This document shows, piece by piece, positions 37,151 through 43,149 of a DNA stretch of 52,646 nt. This DNA is from Bacteroidota bacterium (lineage in GTDB: Bacteria > Bacteroidota > Bacteroidia > Bacteroidales > Prolixibacteraceae). Below the pieces are notes generated by a model that worked only from the letters and a program-made list of their open reading frames with translations, had not been told where the DNA came from and made no database searches. How positions within the stretch are numbered: position 1 is the stretch's first letter; every line of letters begins with the position of its first letter. The translations under genes were made by a program, and so were the position numbers. The DNA is taken from NCBI GenBank assembly GCA_030684645.1, contig JAUXUF010000230.1:1-52646 (forward strand). The letters are read 5' to 3'.

Positions 37151-39739
37151 TTATTCATACCTAAACACAATTTCATCATTTTCGACCTCAACTTTCACTT
37201 TGCTGCGTTCTTCCATTCTTCCTGAAAGGATTTCACGGGATAAATCGTTGATCAGGTATTTTTGGAGCATACGTTTTACCGGTCGGGCGCCGTGTGTTGG
37301 ATCATAACCAACTGCGGCCAGCCAGTCGATGGCTTCTTCCGACATTTCGATGGTAAACTGCTTATTTGGAATACGCTGTATAATCAGGTTGAGCTGCAAT
37401 TTTACAATGTTTCGTACATCCTTCCGTGTCAGTGGCATAAACATGATCACTTCGTCAATCCGGTTCAGAAATTCGGGCGAAATGGTTTTCCGGAGCATAT
37501 CGAACAAATCTGTGCGGGTTTGTTCCTCAATTTGAGCGCGATTGTGTTCATTCATCTGCTCAAACCGGTCCTGAATCAGGTGCGAACCCAGGTTCGAAGT
37601 CATGATGATGATGGTATTCTTGAAATTGGCTACCCGTCCTTTGTTATCGGTGAGGCGGCCATCGTCGAGCACTTGGAGCAAAACGTTAAAAACATCCGGA
37701 TGAGCCTTTTCAATTTCGTCAAAAAGGATCACTGAATAAGGTTTACGGCGAACTGCTTCGGTCAATTGACCGCCTTCGTCATAGCCAACGTATCCGGGAG
37801 GCGAACCAATGAGCCGGGTCACTGAGAACTTTTCCTGGTATTCCGACATATCAATGCGGGTCAGCATATTATCATCGTCGAACAGGTATTCGGCCAAAGC
37901 TTTTGCAAGTTCAGTTTTTCCGACACCGGTCGATCCTAAAAAGATGAAGGACCCAATGGGTCGTTTTTCATCCTGAAGCCCAGCCCTGCTCCGCCGCACA
38001 GCATCTGCAACCGCACGGATAGCTTCATGCTGGCCAATCACACGGTGGTGTAGTTCATCTTCGAGATGCAACAATTTTTCGCGCTCACTCTGCAACATCC
38101 GGGCGACCGGTATGCCGGTCCAGCGTGAAACAATTTGCGAAATATCTTCCGCATCGACCTCTTCCTTAATCAAATGTTGATCTTTATTGCTGCTTAATTC
38201 TGCTTTTAGTTTTTCAATTTCAGATTCTGATTCACGGATTTTGCCGTACCTGATTTCAGCCACACGTCCAAAGTCGCCCGATCGTTCAGCATTTTCAGCT
38301 TCCAGTTTCAGCGATTCGATTTCCTGTTTCTTTTGCTGAATACCGTCGATCAGCGATTTTTCGAGTTGCCACTGAGCCCTGAATTTGGATTGTTCCTGTT
38401 TGAGATTGGCAATCTCTTCGTTCAGAAAAGAGAGCTTCTTTTCATCTTTCTCGCGTTTGATGGCTTCCCGCTCGATCTCGAACTGCATGATTTTCCGGTC
38501 AATTTCATCGAGTTCCTGCGGTACCGAATCCATCTCCAAACGCAAACGTGCAGCGGCTTCGTCCATCAGGTCGATGGCTTTGTCGGGTAAAAACCGTTCG
38601 GTGATATACCGTTGTGACAGTTCAACCGAAGCAATGATCGCCTCATCTTTAATCCGGACTTTGTGGTGATTTTCGTACCGTTCCTTAAGTCCGCGCAGGA
38701 TTGCAATAGCGCTCAGGGTATCCGGTTCGTCCACATTTACAATCTGGAAACGGCGTTCCAGCGCTTTATCTTTTTCGAAATATTTCTGGTATTCATTCAG
38801 GGTTGTCGCCCCGATGGCACGCAGTTCACCGCGGGCCAATGCAGGTTTCAGGATATTGGCGGCATCCATGGCCCCTTCGCTTTTACCGGCTCCCACCAGC
38901 GTGTGAATTTCGTCGATAAACAGAACAATTTCGCCATCAGCATTGATTACCTCGTTAACGACCGCCTTCAGCCGTTCTTCGAATTCGCCTTTGTATTTGG
39001 CCCCGGCAATCAAAGCGCCCATGTCGAGCGAAAAAAGCTGTTTCGATTTCAGGTTTTCTGGTACGTCGCCACGAACAATGCGCTGAGCCAAACCTTCTGC
39101 AATGGCAGTCTTCCCTGTTCCAGGCTCGCCAATCAGGATCGGGTTATTTTTGGTTCTTCGGGATAAAATCTGAAGGATGCGCCGGATTTCATCATCACGG
39201 CCAATCACTGGATCAAGCTTTCCTTCCCGGGCCCGCTGATTCAGGTTTACCGCAAACCGATTCAGCGAATCAAATTTATCTTCGGCACTCTGGCTATCCA
39301 CCTTGGCGCCTTTCCGGAGCTCTTTGACCGCGATTTCCAACTCTTTTTTACTAATTCCTGAATCTTTCAGTAAGCGGCTAATGGTATCGCCGGTATCCAA
39401 AAGCCCCATCAGGATGTGCTCAACTGAAACAAACTGGTCGTTCATTTCCTGCATGATGGCGATGGACTTTTGCAATGCTTTATTAGCATCCGCCGATAAA
39501 TAGGGTTCGCCTCCTGTAACTTTGGGATAGCTTTCGACAATGCGGTCGAGCGCCTGCTGAATGACCACTGGATTTGCTCCCAGCTTTTTCAGCAAAAAAC
39601 CGGTCACATTTTCAGCTTCATGAAAAAGTCCTTTCAGGATATGACCCGTTTCAATGGCTTGCTGCTTATTGCCCTGAGCCACTACAAAAGCATGTTGAAC
39701 AGCTTCCTGTGATTTGATAGTGAAATTATTGAAGTTCAT
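37151..39739 (-). CDS. clpB: ClpB protein disaggregase
   Basis: Hexameric AAA+ chaperone that works with DnaK to dissolve aggregates. 862 aa from the ATG at 39739 ([18 protein letters not shown]). It has an N-terminal repeat domain, then D1 with Walker A GEPGTGKT (about residue 205) and Walker [10 protein letters not shown]. The coiled-coil middle domain (about 400-530, [20 protein letters not shown]) distinguishes ClpB from ClpA/ClpC, and no ClpP-binding IGL/IGF tripeptide loop was noticed. D2 has Walker A GSTGVGKT and [13 protein letters not shown]. The frame is open 30 codons upstream, but without family similarity. A pair of palindromic boxes lies 127-160 bp upstream. Confidence 0.95.
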
Positions 39740-39865
39740 CTTGTGAAATTGAATGTTTATGGCATAAATGATACGCTGTGCGAGTTTCAATAGTTTTGCC
39801 AATTGAAATAACAAAGAGTTGAAGGACAATTTGACCGGGGAATAAATGAGAATAGGAAGTATCTT

Positions 39866-39899
39866 CTGACAAAGGCCAGCAAATATGGCAATTTTGACA
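39866..39899. promoter_or_regulatory. Pair of imperfect palindromes upstream of clpB
   Basis: CTGACAAAGGCCAG (39866-39879) and TGGCAATTTTGACA (39886-39899) are each 14-bp imperfect dyads of TGnCA type, 6 bp apart. The minus strand here also contains CATATTTG, one mismatch from the -7 consensus. The location fits a stress-regulated clpB promoter or operator; no CIRCE element is present. Candidate only. Confidence 0.35.
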
Positions 39900-39908
39900 T
39901 TCCGGGAA

Positions 39909-39993
39909 TAAAAAAAGGGATGAAAACCTTCACCCCTTTTCTCACAAAACCAAACTTATTTCTATGAAAAAAAACTAACCTCTTTCTATTGCT
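39909..39993 (-). ncRNA. Candidate small RNA 1 (tandem pair, clpB-proximal copy)
   Basis: On the minus strand a promoter at 39999-40023 is followed by about 85 nt that end in a textbook terminator: AAAAGGGGTGAA, GGTT loop, TTCATCCCTTTT, then a T-run. Internally it shares TTTTTTTTCATAGAAATA and the preceding GTTAG with the copy at 40094-40187. There is no reading frame of note on this strand. Transcript ends are predicted from the promoter and terminator, not observed. It stops 170 bp before clpB. Confidence 0.6.
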
Positions 39994-39998
39994 CAGGA

Positions 39999-40023
39999 CA
40001 AATATAATCACGGATTACGTTAA
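39999..40023 (-). promoter_or_regulatory. Promoter of candidate small RNA 1
   Basis: Minus strand TTAACG (40018-40023), 11-bp gap, TATATTTG (39999-40006). The -7 element is a perfect TAnnTTTG. The same TTAACG-N11-TAnnTTTG layout occurs at the second copy. A TTTG further upstream is 27 bp away, too far for the usual -33 spacing. Confidence 0.6.
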
Positions 40024-40093
40024 TACATATGAATCAAAGTTAAAGAAACTTAAAAGATATGATTCGCAGGATTATCAGCAAATTTCTCAGAAG

Positions 40094-40187
40094 TAAAAAA
40101 AGGATGGCCTGTGCCATCCTTTTCTACCTAACCTAACCTAACCTAACCTATTTCTATGAAAAAAACCTAACTTTTTGCTTTTTACTA
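40094..40187 (-). ncRNA. Candidate small RNA 2 (tandem pair, ppdK-proximal copy)
   Basis: About 94 nt on the minus strand. It begins just after the promoter at 40193-40217, contains GTTAGGTTTTTTTCATAGAA like copy 1, then a GGTTA pentamer repeated about five times (plus-strand CCTAA, 40127-40151). It ends in the perfect terminator AAAAGGATGGC, loop ACAG, GCCATCCTTTT plus T-run (40095-40124). The pentamer run is degenerate in copy 1. On the plus strand the shared block reads as a four-codon MKKT/MKKN mini-ORF in the two copies, which I consider incidental. Confidence 0.6.
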
Positions 40188-40192
40188 CTCTG

Positions 40193-40217
40193 CAAAAATA
40201 CAACCGTTAATCGTTAA
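40193..40217 (-). promoter_or_regulatory. Promoter of candidate small RNA 2
   Basis: Minus strand TTAACG (40212-40217), 11-bp gap, TATTTTTG (40193-40200). Same spacing as copy 1. A second TTAACG overlaps the gap (40205-40210). Confidence 0.6.
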
Positions 40218-40279
40218 CTTCTATCAAGGATAGTTAAGTAATGTTAAGATTATTAAGAATTAAAAATGACGAACGGTTT

Positions 40280-40308
40280 TTTGCTTCATAAAGGAATACT
40301 TATATTTG
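40280..40308 (+). promoter_or_regulatory. Promoter of ppdK
   Basis: TTTG (40280-40283), 17-bp spacer, TATATTTG (40301-40308), a very good match to the Bacteroidota housekeeping promoter. Transcription would start near 40315, giving a leader of about 110 nt that includes AAGGGTGTGAAG. Confidence 0.78.
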
Positions 40309-40425
40309 CACCGCTTACCCTGAAAAACAATTTTGATTGTATTTTTTCAAGGGTGTGAAGAGATATTTAAAATACAATAATTTTGCTAATTAAAAAGATA
40401 TCAATAATTTATAAAATAAAACTCT

Positions 40426-43149
40426 ATGACAAAGTACGTTTATACGTTCGGAAACGGTGCAGCTGAAGGAAAAGCTGATATGAAAAATCTACTCGGAGGT
40501 AAAGGTGCGAACCTGGCAGAAATGAACCTCATTGGCGTTCCTGTTCCTCCTGGATTCACTATCACCACTGATGTTTGTACCATTTACAATAAACTGGGTC
40601 GGGAACATGTGGTCGAACTTCTTAAAGCTGACGTTGAAGCTGCCATTGCTCAAGTTGAAAAACAAACCGGAGGTAAATTCGGTGATGCAACAAATCCGCT
40701 TTTAGTTTCAGTACGTTCAGGCGCACGTGCCTCCATGCCTGGAATGATGGATACCATTCTGAACCTCGGGTTGAATGACACCGTAGTGGAAGGTATGGCC
40801 AAAAAGACCAACAACCCACGTTTTGTTTGGGATAGCTACCGCCGTTTTGTACAAATGTATGGCGATGTGGTTCTCGACATGAAACCAACTTCAAAAATCG
40901 ACATCGATCCTTTCGAAGAAATTTTGGAAGAAGTTAAGCATCAGGAGAATGTTATTAACGACAACGAGCTTTCGGTTGATGCTCTAAAAAAACTGGTAAC
41001 CAAATTTAAAGCTGCAGTAAAAGCGAAAACTGGCCACGATTTTCCTGAAAGTTCATACGAACAACTTTGGGGAGCCGTTTGTGCAGTGTTCAACAGCTGG
41101 ATGAATGACCGGGCTATCTATTACCGTCAGCTGAACCAGATTCCTGAAGAATGGGGAACAGCAGTTAGCGTGCAGGCCATGGTATTTGGCAACATGGGAC
41201 TTACTTCTGCTACAGGGGTATGCTTTAGCCGCGATGCCGGAACTGGTGAAAACATGTTCAATGGCGAATATTTGATCAATGCCCAGGGCGAAGATGTGGT
41301 GGCAGGTATTCGTACACCTCAGCAGATCACTATTGAAGGTTCAAAACGCTGGGCTGTACTGGCCGGAGTTTCTGAAGCCGACCGTGCTGCAAAATTTCCA
41401 TCGCTCCAGGAAGCTATGCCTGAAATGTACAATGAGTTGTTCACCATTCAGAATAAACTTGAAAAATATTTCAAGGATATGCAGGATATGGAATTCACCA
41501 TTCAGGAAGGTAAAATGTGGATGCTGCAGACCCGTAACGGAAAACGTACCGGCGCTGCCATGGTACAAATTGCCATCGACATGCTTAAAGAAGGATTGAT
41601 TGATGAAAAAACTGCTCTTCTCCGCGTCGAACCTAATAAATTAGACGAATTATTACACCCTGTTTTCGATAAAAGCGCGATCAAAGCAGCCAAAGTTTTG
41701 GCTAAAGGATTACCTGCATCTCCGGGTGCAGCTACCGGCCAGATCGTTTTCTTTGCTGACGAAGCTGAAGAATGGGTAGCACAAGGTAAAAAGGTAGTTT
41801 TGGTCCGTATCGAAACTTCTCCTGAAGACCTTCGCGGTATGAACGTGGCCAAAGGTATTCTGACTGCCCGTGGCGGTATGACCTCGCACGCTGCAGTTGT
41901 TGCGCGCGGAATGGGTAAATGCTGCGTTTCGGGTGCAGGTGCACTGCAGATTGATTACAAGTTACGCACCATGACAGTTGGCGGAAAGACTTTTCAGGAA
42001 GGCGATTTCATCTCACTAAACGGAACCACCGGCGAAGTTTATGAAGGTAAGATTGCAACGATCGATCCTGAACTGAGCGGCTACTTCGGCGAATTAATGA
42101 CCATTGCCGATAAATATAAACGGATGTCGGTGCGTACCAATGCCGATACACCAAAAGACGCTCAGATTGCCCGCAATTTTGGCGCTCAGGGTATCGGGTT
42201 GACCCGTACAGAACACATGTTCTTCGAAGGCGAACGTATTAAAGCCATGCGCGAAATGATCTTAGCCGACGATGTTGCCGGACGCGAACTGGCCCTCGAA
42301 AAATTACTGCCTATGCAACGCAGCGACTTTGAGGGTATTTTCGAAGCCATGGCCGGTTATGGTGTAACCATTCGTTTGCTCGATCCGCCACTGCACGAAT
42401 TTGTTCCTCACGAAGAAGCCAACCAGTTGGAAATGGCCAAAGAAATGGGCATTTCGGTTGAGCAGGTTAAACACAAAGTGGAATCGTTACATGAGTTTAA
42501 CCCAATGTTGGGCCACCGTGGTTGCCGTTTGGGAATTACTTATCCTGAAATTACCGCCATGCAGTCTCGCGCCATCATCGAAGCTGCACTTAACCTGAAG
42601 GCTAAAGGTGTTGATGCCCGTCCGGAAATTATGGTTCCGCTGGTTGGTACAGTAGCCGAGTTGAAAAACCAGACCGAAATCATCCGTGCCACTGCTGAAA
42701 AAGTATTTGCTGAAAAAGGCGACCGCATCGACTACCAGGTGGGTACCATGATCGAAATTCCACGTGCGGCTTTAACTGCCGACCACATTGCTGCCGAAGC
42801 TGACTTCTTCTCATTCGGAACCAACGATCTAACCCAAATGACTTTGGGTTACTCGCGCGACGATGCCGGAAAATTCTTACCTGACTATCTGAACAGAGGC
42901 ATCCTGAAACAGGATCCATTCCAGGTGTTGGATCAGAATGGTGTTGGACTCTTGATGGAAATTGGGGTTACACGTGGTCGTTCGGCAAAATCCAATCTGA
43001 AAATTGGTATTTGTGGCGAACATGGTGGTGAACCAAGTTCGGTTGAATTCTGTGATAAATTAGGAATGAACTACGTAAGTTGTTCTCCTTATCGCGTGCC
43101 GATTGCACGTTTGGCTGCTGCCCAGGCAAACATCAAACACGCCAAATAA
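40426..43149 (+). CDS. ppdK: Pyruvate, phosphate dikinase
   Basis: Interconverts pyruvate, ATP and Pi with phosphoenolpyruvate, AMP and PPi, a reversible glycolysis/gluconeogenesis step often used by anaerobes with PPi-linked energy metabolism. 907 aa. The ATP-grasp N-terminal domain starts VYTFGNGAAEGKADMKNLLGGKGANLAEM. The swivelling phosphohistidine domain holds His488 in GGMTSHAAVVARGMGKCC. The C-terminal PEP/pyruvate barrel ends with Cys863 in ICGEHGGEPSSVEFC. GTNDLTQMTLGYSRDDA is the PEP-utilising enzyme signature. Monocistronic, with its own promoter upstream and a strong terminator downstream. Confidence 0.96.
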   Translation: MTKYVYTFGNGAAEGKADMKNLLGGKGANLAEMNLIGVPVPPGFTITTDVCTIYNKLGREHVVELLKADVEAAIAQVEKQTGGKFGDATNPLLVSVRSGARASMPGMMDTILNLGLNDTVVEGMAKKTNNPRFVWDSYRRFVQMYGDVVLDMKPTSKIDIDPFEEILEEVKHQENVINDNELSVDALKKLVTKFKAAVKAKTGHDFPESSYEQLWGAVCAVFNSWMNDRAIYYRQLNQIPEEWGTAVSVQAMVFGNMGLTSATGVCFSRDAGTGENMFNGEYLINAQGEDVVAGIRTPQQITIEGSKRWAVLAGVSEADRAAKFPSLQEAMPEMYNELFTIQNKLEKYFKDMQDMEFTIQEGKMWMLQTRNGKRTGAAMVQIAIDMLKEGLIDEKTALLRVEPNKLDELLHPVFDKSAIKAAKVLAKGLPASPGAATGQIVFFADEAEEWVAQGKKVVLVRIETSPEDLRGMNVAKGILTARGGMTSHAAVVARGMGKCCVSGAGALQIDYKLRTMTVGGKTFQEGDFISLNGTTGEVYEGKIATIDPELSGYFGELMTIADKYKRMSVRTNADTPKDAQIARNFGAQGIGLTRTEHMFFEGERIKAMREMILADDVAGRELALEKLLPMQRSDFEGIFEAMAGYGVTIRLLDPPLHEFVPHEEANQLEMAKEMGISVEQVKHKVESLHEFNPMLGHRGCRLGITYPEITAMQSRAIIEAALNLKAKGVDARPEIMVPLVGTVAELKNQTEIIRATAEKVFAEKGDRIDYQVGTMIEIPRAALTADHIAAEADFFSFGTNDLTQMTLGYSRDDAGKFLPDYLNRGILKQDPFQVLDQNGVGLLMEIGVTRGRSAKSNLKIGICGEHGGEPSSVEFCDKLGMNYVSCSPYRVPIARLAAAQANIKHAK

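Follow-up and report, generated by a model that had tools for sequence, protein, structure and literature searches.

FopS, a family of small RNAs (sRNAs) of Bacteroides thetaiotaomicron (Ruttiger et al. 2025, PMC11697453), is the closest described system to the genes reported here. In the parts of that paper drawn on here, FopS-10 acts at the start codon to block susC translation, RbpB relieves the block and binds FopS over a 55-nt site, and FopS in Bacteroides also binds glycoside hydrolase mRNAs; the family occurs in phages and is called highly conserved within the Bacteroidaceae, from BLAST with a word size of 28 (PMC11697453). GibS, as far as the portion of PMC7366714 used here goes, has the R1 seed type common to FopS and binds translation starts, and it differs from the units described below in its second seed, its PM2 promoter (near-palindromic, with elements at -10 and -30) and its 142-position model.

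We analyzed a stretch of 52,646 nucleotides from a Prolixibacteraceae genome (contig JAUXUF010000230.1 of assembly GCA_030684645.1, hereafter the window), in which an earlier note had proposed, from the letters alone, a tandem pair of related sRNA genes between clpB and ppdK. We computed the gene anatomy, its conservation, the covariation of the terminators, the promoter array and a statistical preference for susC starts, adding to that note a family relation, a third copy, the promoter array and predicted targets.

Two tandem units between clpB and ppdK

The two tandem minus-strand units were borne out by the sequence, with predicted starts at 40187 and 39993, 194 bp apart. They and their flanking genes comprise the following features.

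37151..39739, minus strand: clpB, flanking gene, start set at the MNFNNF methionine
39909..39993, minus strand: sRNA gene copy 1, predicted RNA of ~85 nt, 5' end near 39993 as placed from the TAnnTTTG position
39910..39942, minus strand: intrinsic terminator of copy 1, from folding and stem covariation
39957..39979, minus strand: shared block and predicted seed of copy 1
39999..40053, minus strand: promoter array of copy 1, TTAAG-N5-TTAAC-N15-TTAAC-N12-TATATTTG, with one base changed in the first box and 0 mismatches in the last two
40094..40187, minus strand: sRNA gene copy 2, predicted RNA of ~94 nt, 5' end near 40187 as placed from the TAnnTTTG position
40095..40125, minus strand: intrinsic terminator of copy 2, from folding and stem covariation
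40126..40148, minus strand: GGTTA repeat within copy 2, four units being exact and the fifth partial
40149..40171, minus strand: shared block and predicted seed of copy 2, with GTTAG, a U-run and CAUAGAAAUA, the U-run + CAU being antisense to AUGAAAAA
40193..40247, minus strand: promoter array of copy 2, TTAAC-N5-TTAAC-N15-TTAAC-N12-TATTTTTG, 0 mismatches
40426..43149, plus strand: ppdK, flanking gene

Most elements named in the earlier note were found as stated there: copy 1 is preceded by TTAACG-N11-TATATTTG and copy 2 by TTAACG-N11-TATTTTTG, both copies hold a common internal block of GTTAG, a T-run and CATAGAAATA, and both have stems based on AAAAGG...CCTTTT that end in seven Ts. Others needed correction, as the TTAACG head element is present but forms one part of a longer TTAAC repeat array, and the "about five" GGTTA units of copy 2 are four exact units, the fifth being only partial. 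With up to three mismatches, the block GTTAGNTTTTTTTCATAGAAATA occurred in the 5.2-Mb genome only at the two sRNA copies (0 in a backwards control), while TTAACG at a gap of 11 before TAnnTTTG was confined to copies 1 and 2 across both strands of 450,755 genomic bases. An open reading frame at 39787..40011 (74 aa), which crosses copy 1's terminator, was not accepted as a gene, and a tRNA/tmRNA search gave none.

Both units gave marked folding scores (z = -3.46 and -3.77, with 1/200 and 0/200 shuffles folding as well). The predicted folds have a single-stranded 5' part, with weak extra pairing in the head, and a 3' Rho-independent terminator hairpin, as in FopS; the mostly single-stranded head holds the U-run, CAUAGAAAUA and GGUU, and a GGTT-rich segment lies before the stem. 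A simple terminator scan of 39700-40450 reported none, probably because the stem runs into the T-run.

Comparison with FopS and other copies in the genome

FopS (RF04319) was the best Rfam family for the two units, at 35.7 bits (E = 0.0016) for copy 2 and 23.5 bits (E = 0.38) for copy 1. Both miss its gathering score of 56 bits, the level at which Rfam gave no match in the window, and copy 2 was the best match to the FopS model in the whole genome (E = 0.0027). GibS (RF04182) gave no match in 39700-40450 up to E = 10. The earlier note expected similar blocks in other Bacteroidales but could not name a family; a closest named family can now be given, FopS, but since the curated threshold is missed, we class the pair as FopS-like rather than placing it in RF04319.

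Five bridge loci were found both by our covariance model R2 (see below) and by the FopS model above its threshold (56.1-78.3 versus 56 bits). Their R2 scores were 38.1 (L199), 38.3 (L202), 35.5 (L219), 28.6 (L220) and 28.6 bits (L228), the last two near chance level, and they sit in the anonymised families f26, f31 and f60, one or more of which may be the Bacteroidaceae itself. Among 20 relative loci given to the FopS model, 5 passed the threshold, L221 gave a match short of it, and 14 had no match at E ≤ 0.01, including the third sRNA described below (L211), a tandem array in another family (L212) and the Draconibacterium orientale locus (L118). Across loci, the sequences form a series from UUUUUCAUAGAAAUAGGUUUGGUUAGG via UUUUUUCAUAGUUAAGGUUUAGGUUAA to UUUUUCAUAGUAUUAGAUUUAAGGUUAAC, and on sequence grounds the window pair and FopS likely share descent.

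Like FopS, the window units have a single-stranded 5' head with a U-run + CAU(A/G)G seed followed by GGUUA, a Rho-independent terminator, a TAnnTTTG-type promoter (at both copies and at 46/48 related ones), several paralogs per genome and predicted susC targets. Set against the FopS R1/R1' seeds, the U-run + CAU(A/G)G and GGUU(A) are kept and the middle differs (AGAAAUAGGUU versus GGUAUUAGAUUUAAGGUUA). Unlike FopS, they also have an extra predicted 5' leader of ~20 nt before the U-run, a position between clpB and ppdK, 3 clear copies in the genome versus 14, and an array of TTAAC boxes that none of the five bridge loci showed, L202 having three TTAAC at other spacings.

The third of these three clear paralogs is on another contig (G000:C205:4454-4539, equal to L211:1455-1540, minus strand; R2 38.9 bits, E = 2.7e-5). 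It has TAnnTTTG, the U-run + CAU, a terminator and a long GTTTAG/GTTAG repeat in the gene, and its promoter reads TTAAC-N5-TTAAC-N32-TACATTTG. A related copy was seen in genome G032 (L226). Weaker matches in the window's genome are an R2 match on C148 (29.4 bits), an ambiguous FopS-model match on C7 (L060), and FopS-model matches at L061, L062, L064 and L065. A further FopS-model match, L059, looks like a bare terminator and was rejected, and two more (L058 and L063), read by eye as antisense to ATGAAA gene starts, were not counted as sRNAs; there the FopS model may partly recognise targets read backwards, an annotation trap.

Conservation in the Prolixibacteraceae

The motif was found in the named relatives Draconibacterium orientale, D. 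mangrovi, D. sediminis and D. aestuarii and in Prolixibacteraceae MAGs (21 stretches), D. orientale carrying the same locus as a pair (L118). From the motif matches, relative loci were chosen by eye, leaving out named loci on contigs already represented by G loci, as well as L111, L113 and L116, which are without a unit of the FopS-like family. A unit is present in 24 of the chosen loci, and 20 of these, Draconibacterium included, adjoin clpB and/or ppdK (11 adjoin both genes, 8 ppdK alone and 1 clpB alone), in flank calls limited by the several loci that are cut by stretch length; 16 of the 20 carry two or three copies.

For model building, 40 copies were aligned, all of them chosen by the seed motif. 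A first model, R1, was poor (3 pairs only), since hairpins of unequal length were misaligned, and was replaced by R2, which was built from 20 copies with similar stems, without window copy 1 and without any Draconibacterium copy. R2 detected window copy 1 with E = 2.4e-12, and the E values of four Draconibacterium pairs that it also matched ranged from 6.1e-10 to 1.4e-8. At E ≤ 0.01, a genome-level match was present in 22 of the 23 genomes of the genus, the single miss being 66% complete, and in 16/16 of those that are ≥90% complete and ≤5% contaminated; matches per genome ranged from 0 to 8, some of them weak.

In an alignment of 45 distinct rows, 99.8% of 492 terminator stem cells were paired, both sides had changed in 9 of the 11 pairs, and 0/500 shuffles showed covariation as high; as this alignment was fitted to the structure, the fairer comparison is with slid controls, of which 47-75% was paired. 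An unfitted alignment of 20 copies had 220/220 stem cells paired, with both-side changes in 3/11 pairs. In the 40-copy alignment, the differing stems of copies 1 and 2 each recur across the genus, so that the duplication, as read from sequence, looks older than the genus.

Loss of the promoter and shared block with only the terminators kept, which the earlier note had named as a refuting case, was not seen among these copies, themselves chosen by motif or model. Its argument that duplicated units with their own promoters and terminators are sRNA genes is supported comparatively, by matches in 22/23 genomes of the genus, covarying terminators and promoters in place at 46/48 copies, and both units are very likely real sRNA genes. 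The units lie upstream of clpB on the same strand in two genera, as would also befit cis-acting clpB leaders or attenuators, whose tandem terminators would regulate read-through into this heat-shock gene. We hold this to be very unlikely, given that 46/48 units have their own promoter in place, that 4/24 loci (L102, L114, L126 and L136) have neither clpB nor ppdK within the stretch examined, that the third paralog is on another contig, and that the predicted folds of both units keep the terminator hairpin. Scarcely credible is a mobile or repetitive element with no regulatory function and nothing more than a terminator: copy number varies and a tandem cluster is present in another family (L212), yet the position is repeated, promoter spacing is exact to the base in 44/48 regions, and stem pairs show both-side changes.

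An array of TTAAC boxes upstream of the sRNAs

Upstream regions were compared for 48 of 49 Prolixibacteraceae copies, one being left out for too short a stretch. They contained 126 TTAAC versus 19.0 expected from shuffles (highest shuffle, 30), with start-to-start distances of 10 (25 times), 20 (44) and 30 (25) and gaps to TAnnTTTG of 12 (44), 32 (45) and 42 (26), counts that are not independent, since the copies are related. TTAAC-N12-TAnnTTTG was found in 44/48 regions and TAnnTTTG was in place in 46/48, a looser count of 47/48 including one chance match within a TTAAC box. Spacing gave no clear peak for a common TTG element at -33. Across 35 upstream regions from other families, TTAAC was weakly enriched (20 versus 9.2 expected, highest shuffle 19).

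Within the window's genome, TTAAC-N15-TTAAC-N12-TAnnTTTG was exact at copies 1 and 2 only, with none at one mismatch. TTAAC-N5-TTAAC-N32-TAnnTTTG had just two exact occurrences in the 5.2 Mb, copy 2 and the third sRNA, and at one mismatch was found at copy 1 and two other places. Only exact and one-mismatch matches were used, since looser scans fell below their backwards controls (126 versus 296 for the former pattern at three mismatches, 17 versus 26 for the latter at two). One one-mismatch array, read by eye, precedes the start of a MoxR-type ATPase gene (L285, G000:C372:2900-2954), which is a possible non-sRNA target of the same regulator.

OmpR/PhoB-type response regulators bind direct repeats. 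By analogy, the ten-bp phasing, which keeps the boxes on one helix face, suggests an OmpR/PhoB-like regulator that binds direct repeats. For RprY as a candidate, the part of PMC3646045 consulted gives no site consensus, and a literature search of one collection found no TTAAC array in Bacteroides. The exactly spaced promoter array of these sRNAs is new here, and the TTAAC pattern may be a private on/off switch. Being nearly sRNA-specific in the genome, the array offers a direct handle on the regulator and on the signal that switches FopS-type RNAs.

Predicted pairing with susC starts

The U-run + CAU is the reverse complement of AUGAAAAA. Duplexes of the three RNAs were computed over -35 to +25 around mechanically chosen starts (the first ATG of each open frame). 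From 58 TIGR04056 matches, 30 were taken as the susC set and L161 was dropped, its stretch beginning inside the gene, leaving 29; controls were the 318 starts of the window and 20 stretches that remained of 321 after removal of 3 susC genes. Values are given for the three RNAs in turn or as the range over them. Mean duplex energies were -19.4, -18.5 and -19.3 kcal/mol at susC starts and -15.8, -14.7 and -13.9 kcal/mol at the others, a difference reached by 0/100 shuffled sRNAs for each of the three (shuffles keeping dinucleotides and using 100 of the 318 control starts). UUUUCAU was paired somewhere in the region at 27-29 of the 29 susC starts, and CAU paired the start codon itself in 26, 24 and 25 of 29 susC genes, versus 159, 132 and 140 of 318 others. 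Part of this preference stems from MKK starts, as the gap was smaller in MKK-matched genes, where 20 susC had means of -20.3, -19.1 and -20.2 versus -17.9, -16.8 and -15.8 for 17 others, and CAU paired the start codon in 20, 20 and 19 of 20 versus 15, 12 and 15 of 17. Over the wider region of -110 to +110, the best duplex covered the start codon in 15, 15 and 23 of 29 susC genes versus 141, 123 and 124 of 318 others, so that the modeled coverage is modest for copies 1 and 2; the 30 best starts included 5, 9 and 11 susC.

When up to three mismatches were allowed, the antisense of the long seed was confined to the two sRNAs plus three further sites (2 in a backwards control), and the long seed yielded no near-perfect target; target pairing must therefore be interrupted. 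In a cross-check with 40 shuffles on 29, 18 and 27 susC starts of the window's genome, G065 and G276 (12/30 loci being dropped for G065 and 3/30 for G276), the three RNAs of the window's genome scored best on their own susC set (z = -7.0, -4.5 and -6.3; on 80 control starts, -0.3, -0.9 and -1.3), and so did the G276 FopS (-8.0 versus -3.3 and -3.4). G276 FopS and G065_b also preferred control starts (-2.9 and -2.7), and both G065 RNAs paired better with the susC starts of another genome than with their own.

These RNAs might instead be FopS-type homologues aimed mainly at other mRNAs with AUGAAA starts (lipoproteins, secreted enzymes), susC being a minor target. Several non-susC starts are among the best duplexes, CAU pairs the start codon in 132-159 of the 318 other genes, and Bacteroides FopS has its glycoside hydrolase mRNAs (PMC11697453); as a class, however, susC starts score better, also when MKK-matched (20 versus 17 genes), and we consider a mainly non-susC role unlikely, if the least so of the alternatives.

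The genome has one RRM_1 match (L096:1255-1716; E = 1.4e-25), a protein of 153 aa with a long glycine-rich tail whose best solved relatives are eukaryotic RRM proteins, the Porphyromonas gingivalis RRM protein 7jly also being found (E = 1.6e-23). The idea that GGTTA repeats serve as binding sites holds in part: a GGTT-type segment usually follows the seed, but the long repeat is not a conserved feature, since exact tandem GGTTA units number 0 to 4 among 49 copies. Such a segment, the RRM_1 protein and the 55-nt RbpB site on FopS (PMC11697453) would all fit RNAs that act by binding protein, the U-run and GGUUA being a sponge for an RRM or other RNA-binding protein and start pairing incidental. 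This seems improbable, as the susC-start preference beats all 100 dinucleotide-keeping shuffles, the U-run + CAU ranks with the most constant segments in the alignment of 40 copies (chosen by that motif), and exact GGTTA is absent in 7/49 copies.

Proposed mechanism

Repression of SusC-type transporters under a common dedicated regulator is the best-supported of the proposed mechanisms, and we think it probable that the units are paralogous, trans-acting FopS-like sRNAs that block SusC-type start codons under one such regulator. We infer that a putative dedicated transcription regulator would bind the TTAAC boxes in their helical phasing and act with the housekeeping sigma factor, placed at TAnnTTTG, to drive the three clear copies together. 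Each RNA would have a mostly single-stranded 5' head and end at its own terminator. Its U-run + CAU would pair with AUGAAAAA(A), where secreted outer-membrane transporters, SusC-type above all, have their start codon and initial lysine codons, and the GGUU segment after the seed could extend pairing into the leader. Pairing at the start would block translation initiation and so tune SusC-type transporters, and the RRM protein may be a binding partner that modulates the RNAs, like RbpB with FopS. OmrA and OmrB control outer-membrane proteins through a shared 5' seed. Named as sibling sRNAs in the part of PMC11697453 used here, they are likewise a paralogous pair, an enterobacterial one, and are likened to the window units by way of working only.

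Distribution in the Bacteroidales and beyond

An R2 search matched 95 of 294 genomes of the order at E ≤ 0.01, a count probably inflated, since in own-genome DNA (398,109 bases) the top match other than the third sRNA reached 26.0 bits and only 21 of the 29 best order-wide loci have the strict seed core. These 21 seed-bearing loci are spread over 14 anonymised families, the window's own included, and L205 has a near variant. A literature search of one collection found no such RNAs in the Prolixibacteraceae.

The recurring position, the fixed array in the Prolixibacteraceae and the seed-bearing matches in 14 families suggest that FopS-type transporter control is older and wider than described, extending beyond gut bacteria. 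Draconibacterium are marine bacteria. Somewhat short of an even chance, in our estimate, is the broader idea that start-codon sRNAs directed against AUGAAAAA are an ancient, order-wide Bacteroidales device for setting outer-membrane transporter levels, with FopS as one branch, and that in the Prolixibacteraceae a single regulator, recognising TTAAC boxes phased at 10 bp, has few or no targets besides these sRNAs.

On viral contigs, 54 stretches had the bare block, the best scoring 30.6 bits by R2, and were read as chance or doubtful. Eight viral contigs (L143-L150) carry the FopS-type seed TTTTTCATGGTATTAGATTTAAGGTTA without mismatch, which agrees with the occurrence in phages given in the part of PMC11697453 consulted. 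In another genus of the Prolixibacteraceae, two very similar copies lie ~300 bp apart (L114:1608-1981), clpB and ppdK being absent from the 4 kb. Genome G065, from another family, has six matches at L212:1551-4053, five of them within ~0.9 kb, forming a tandem array with the variant seed UUUCUUCAUAG.
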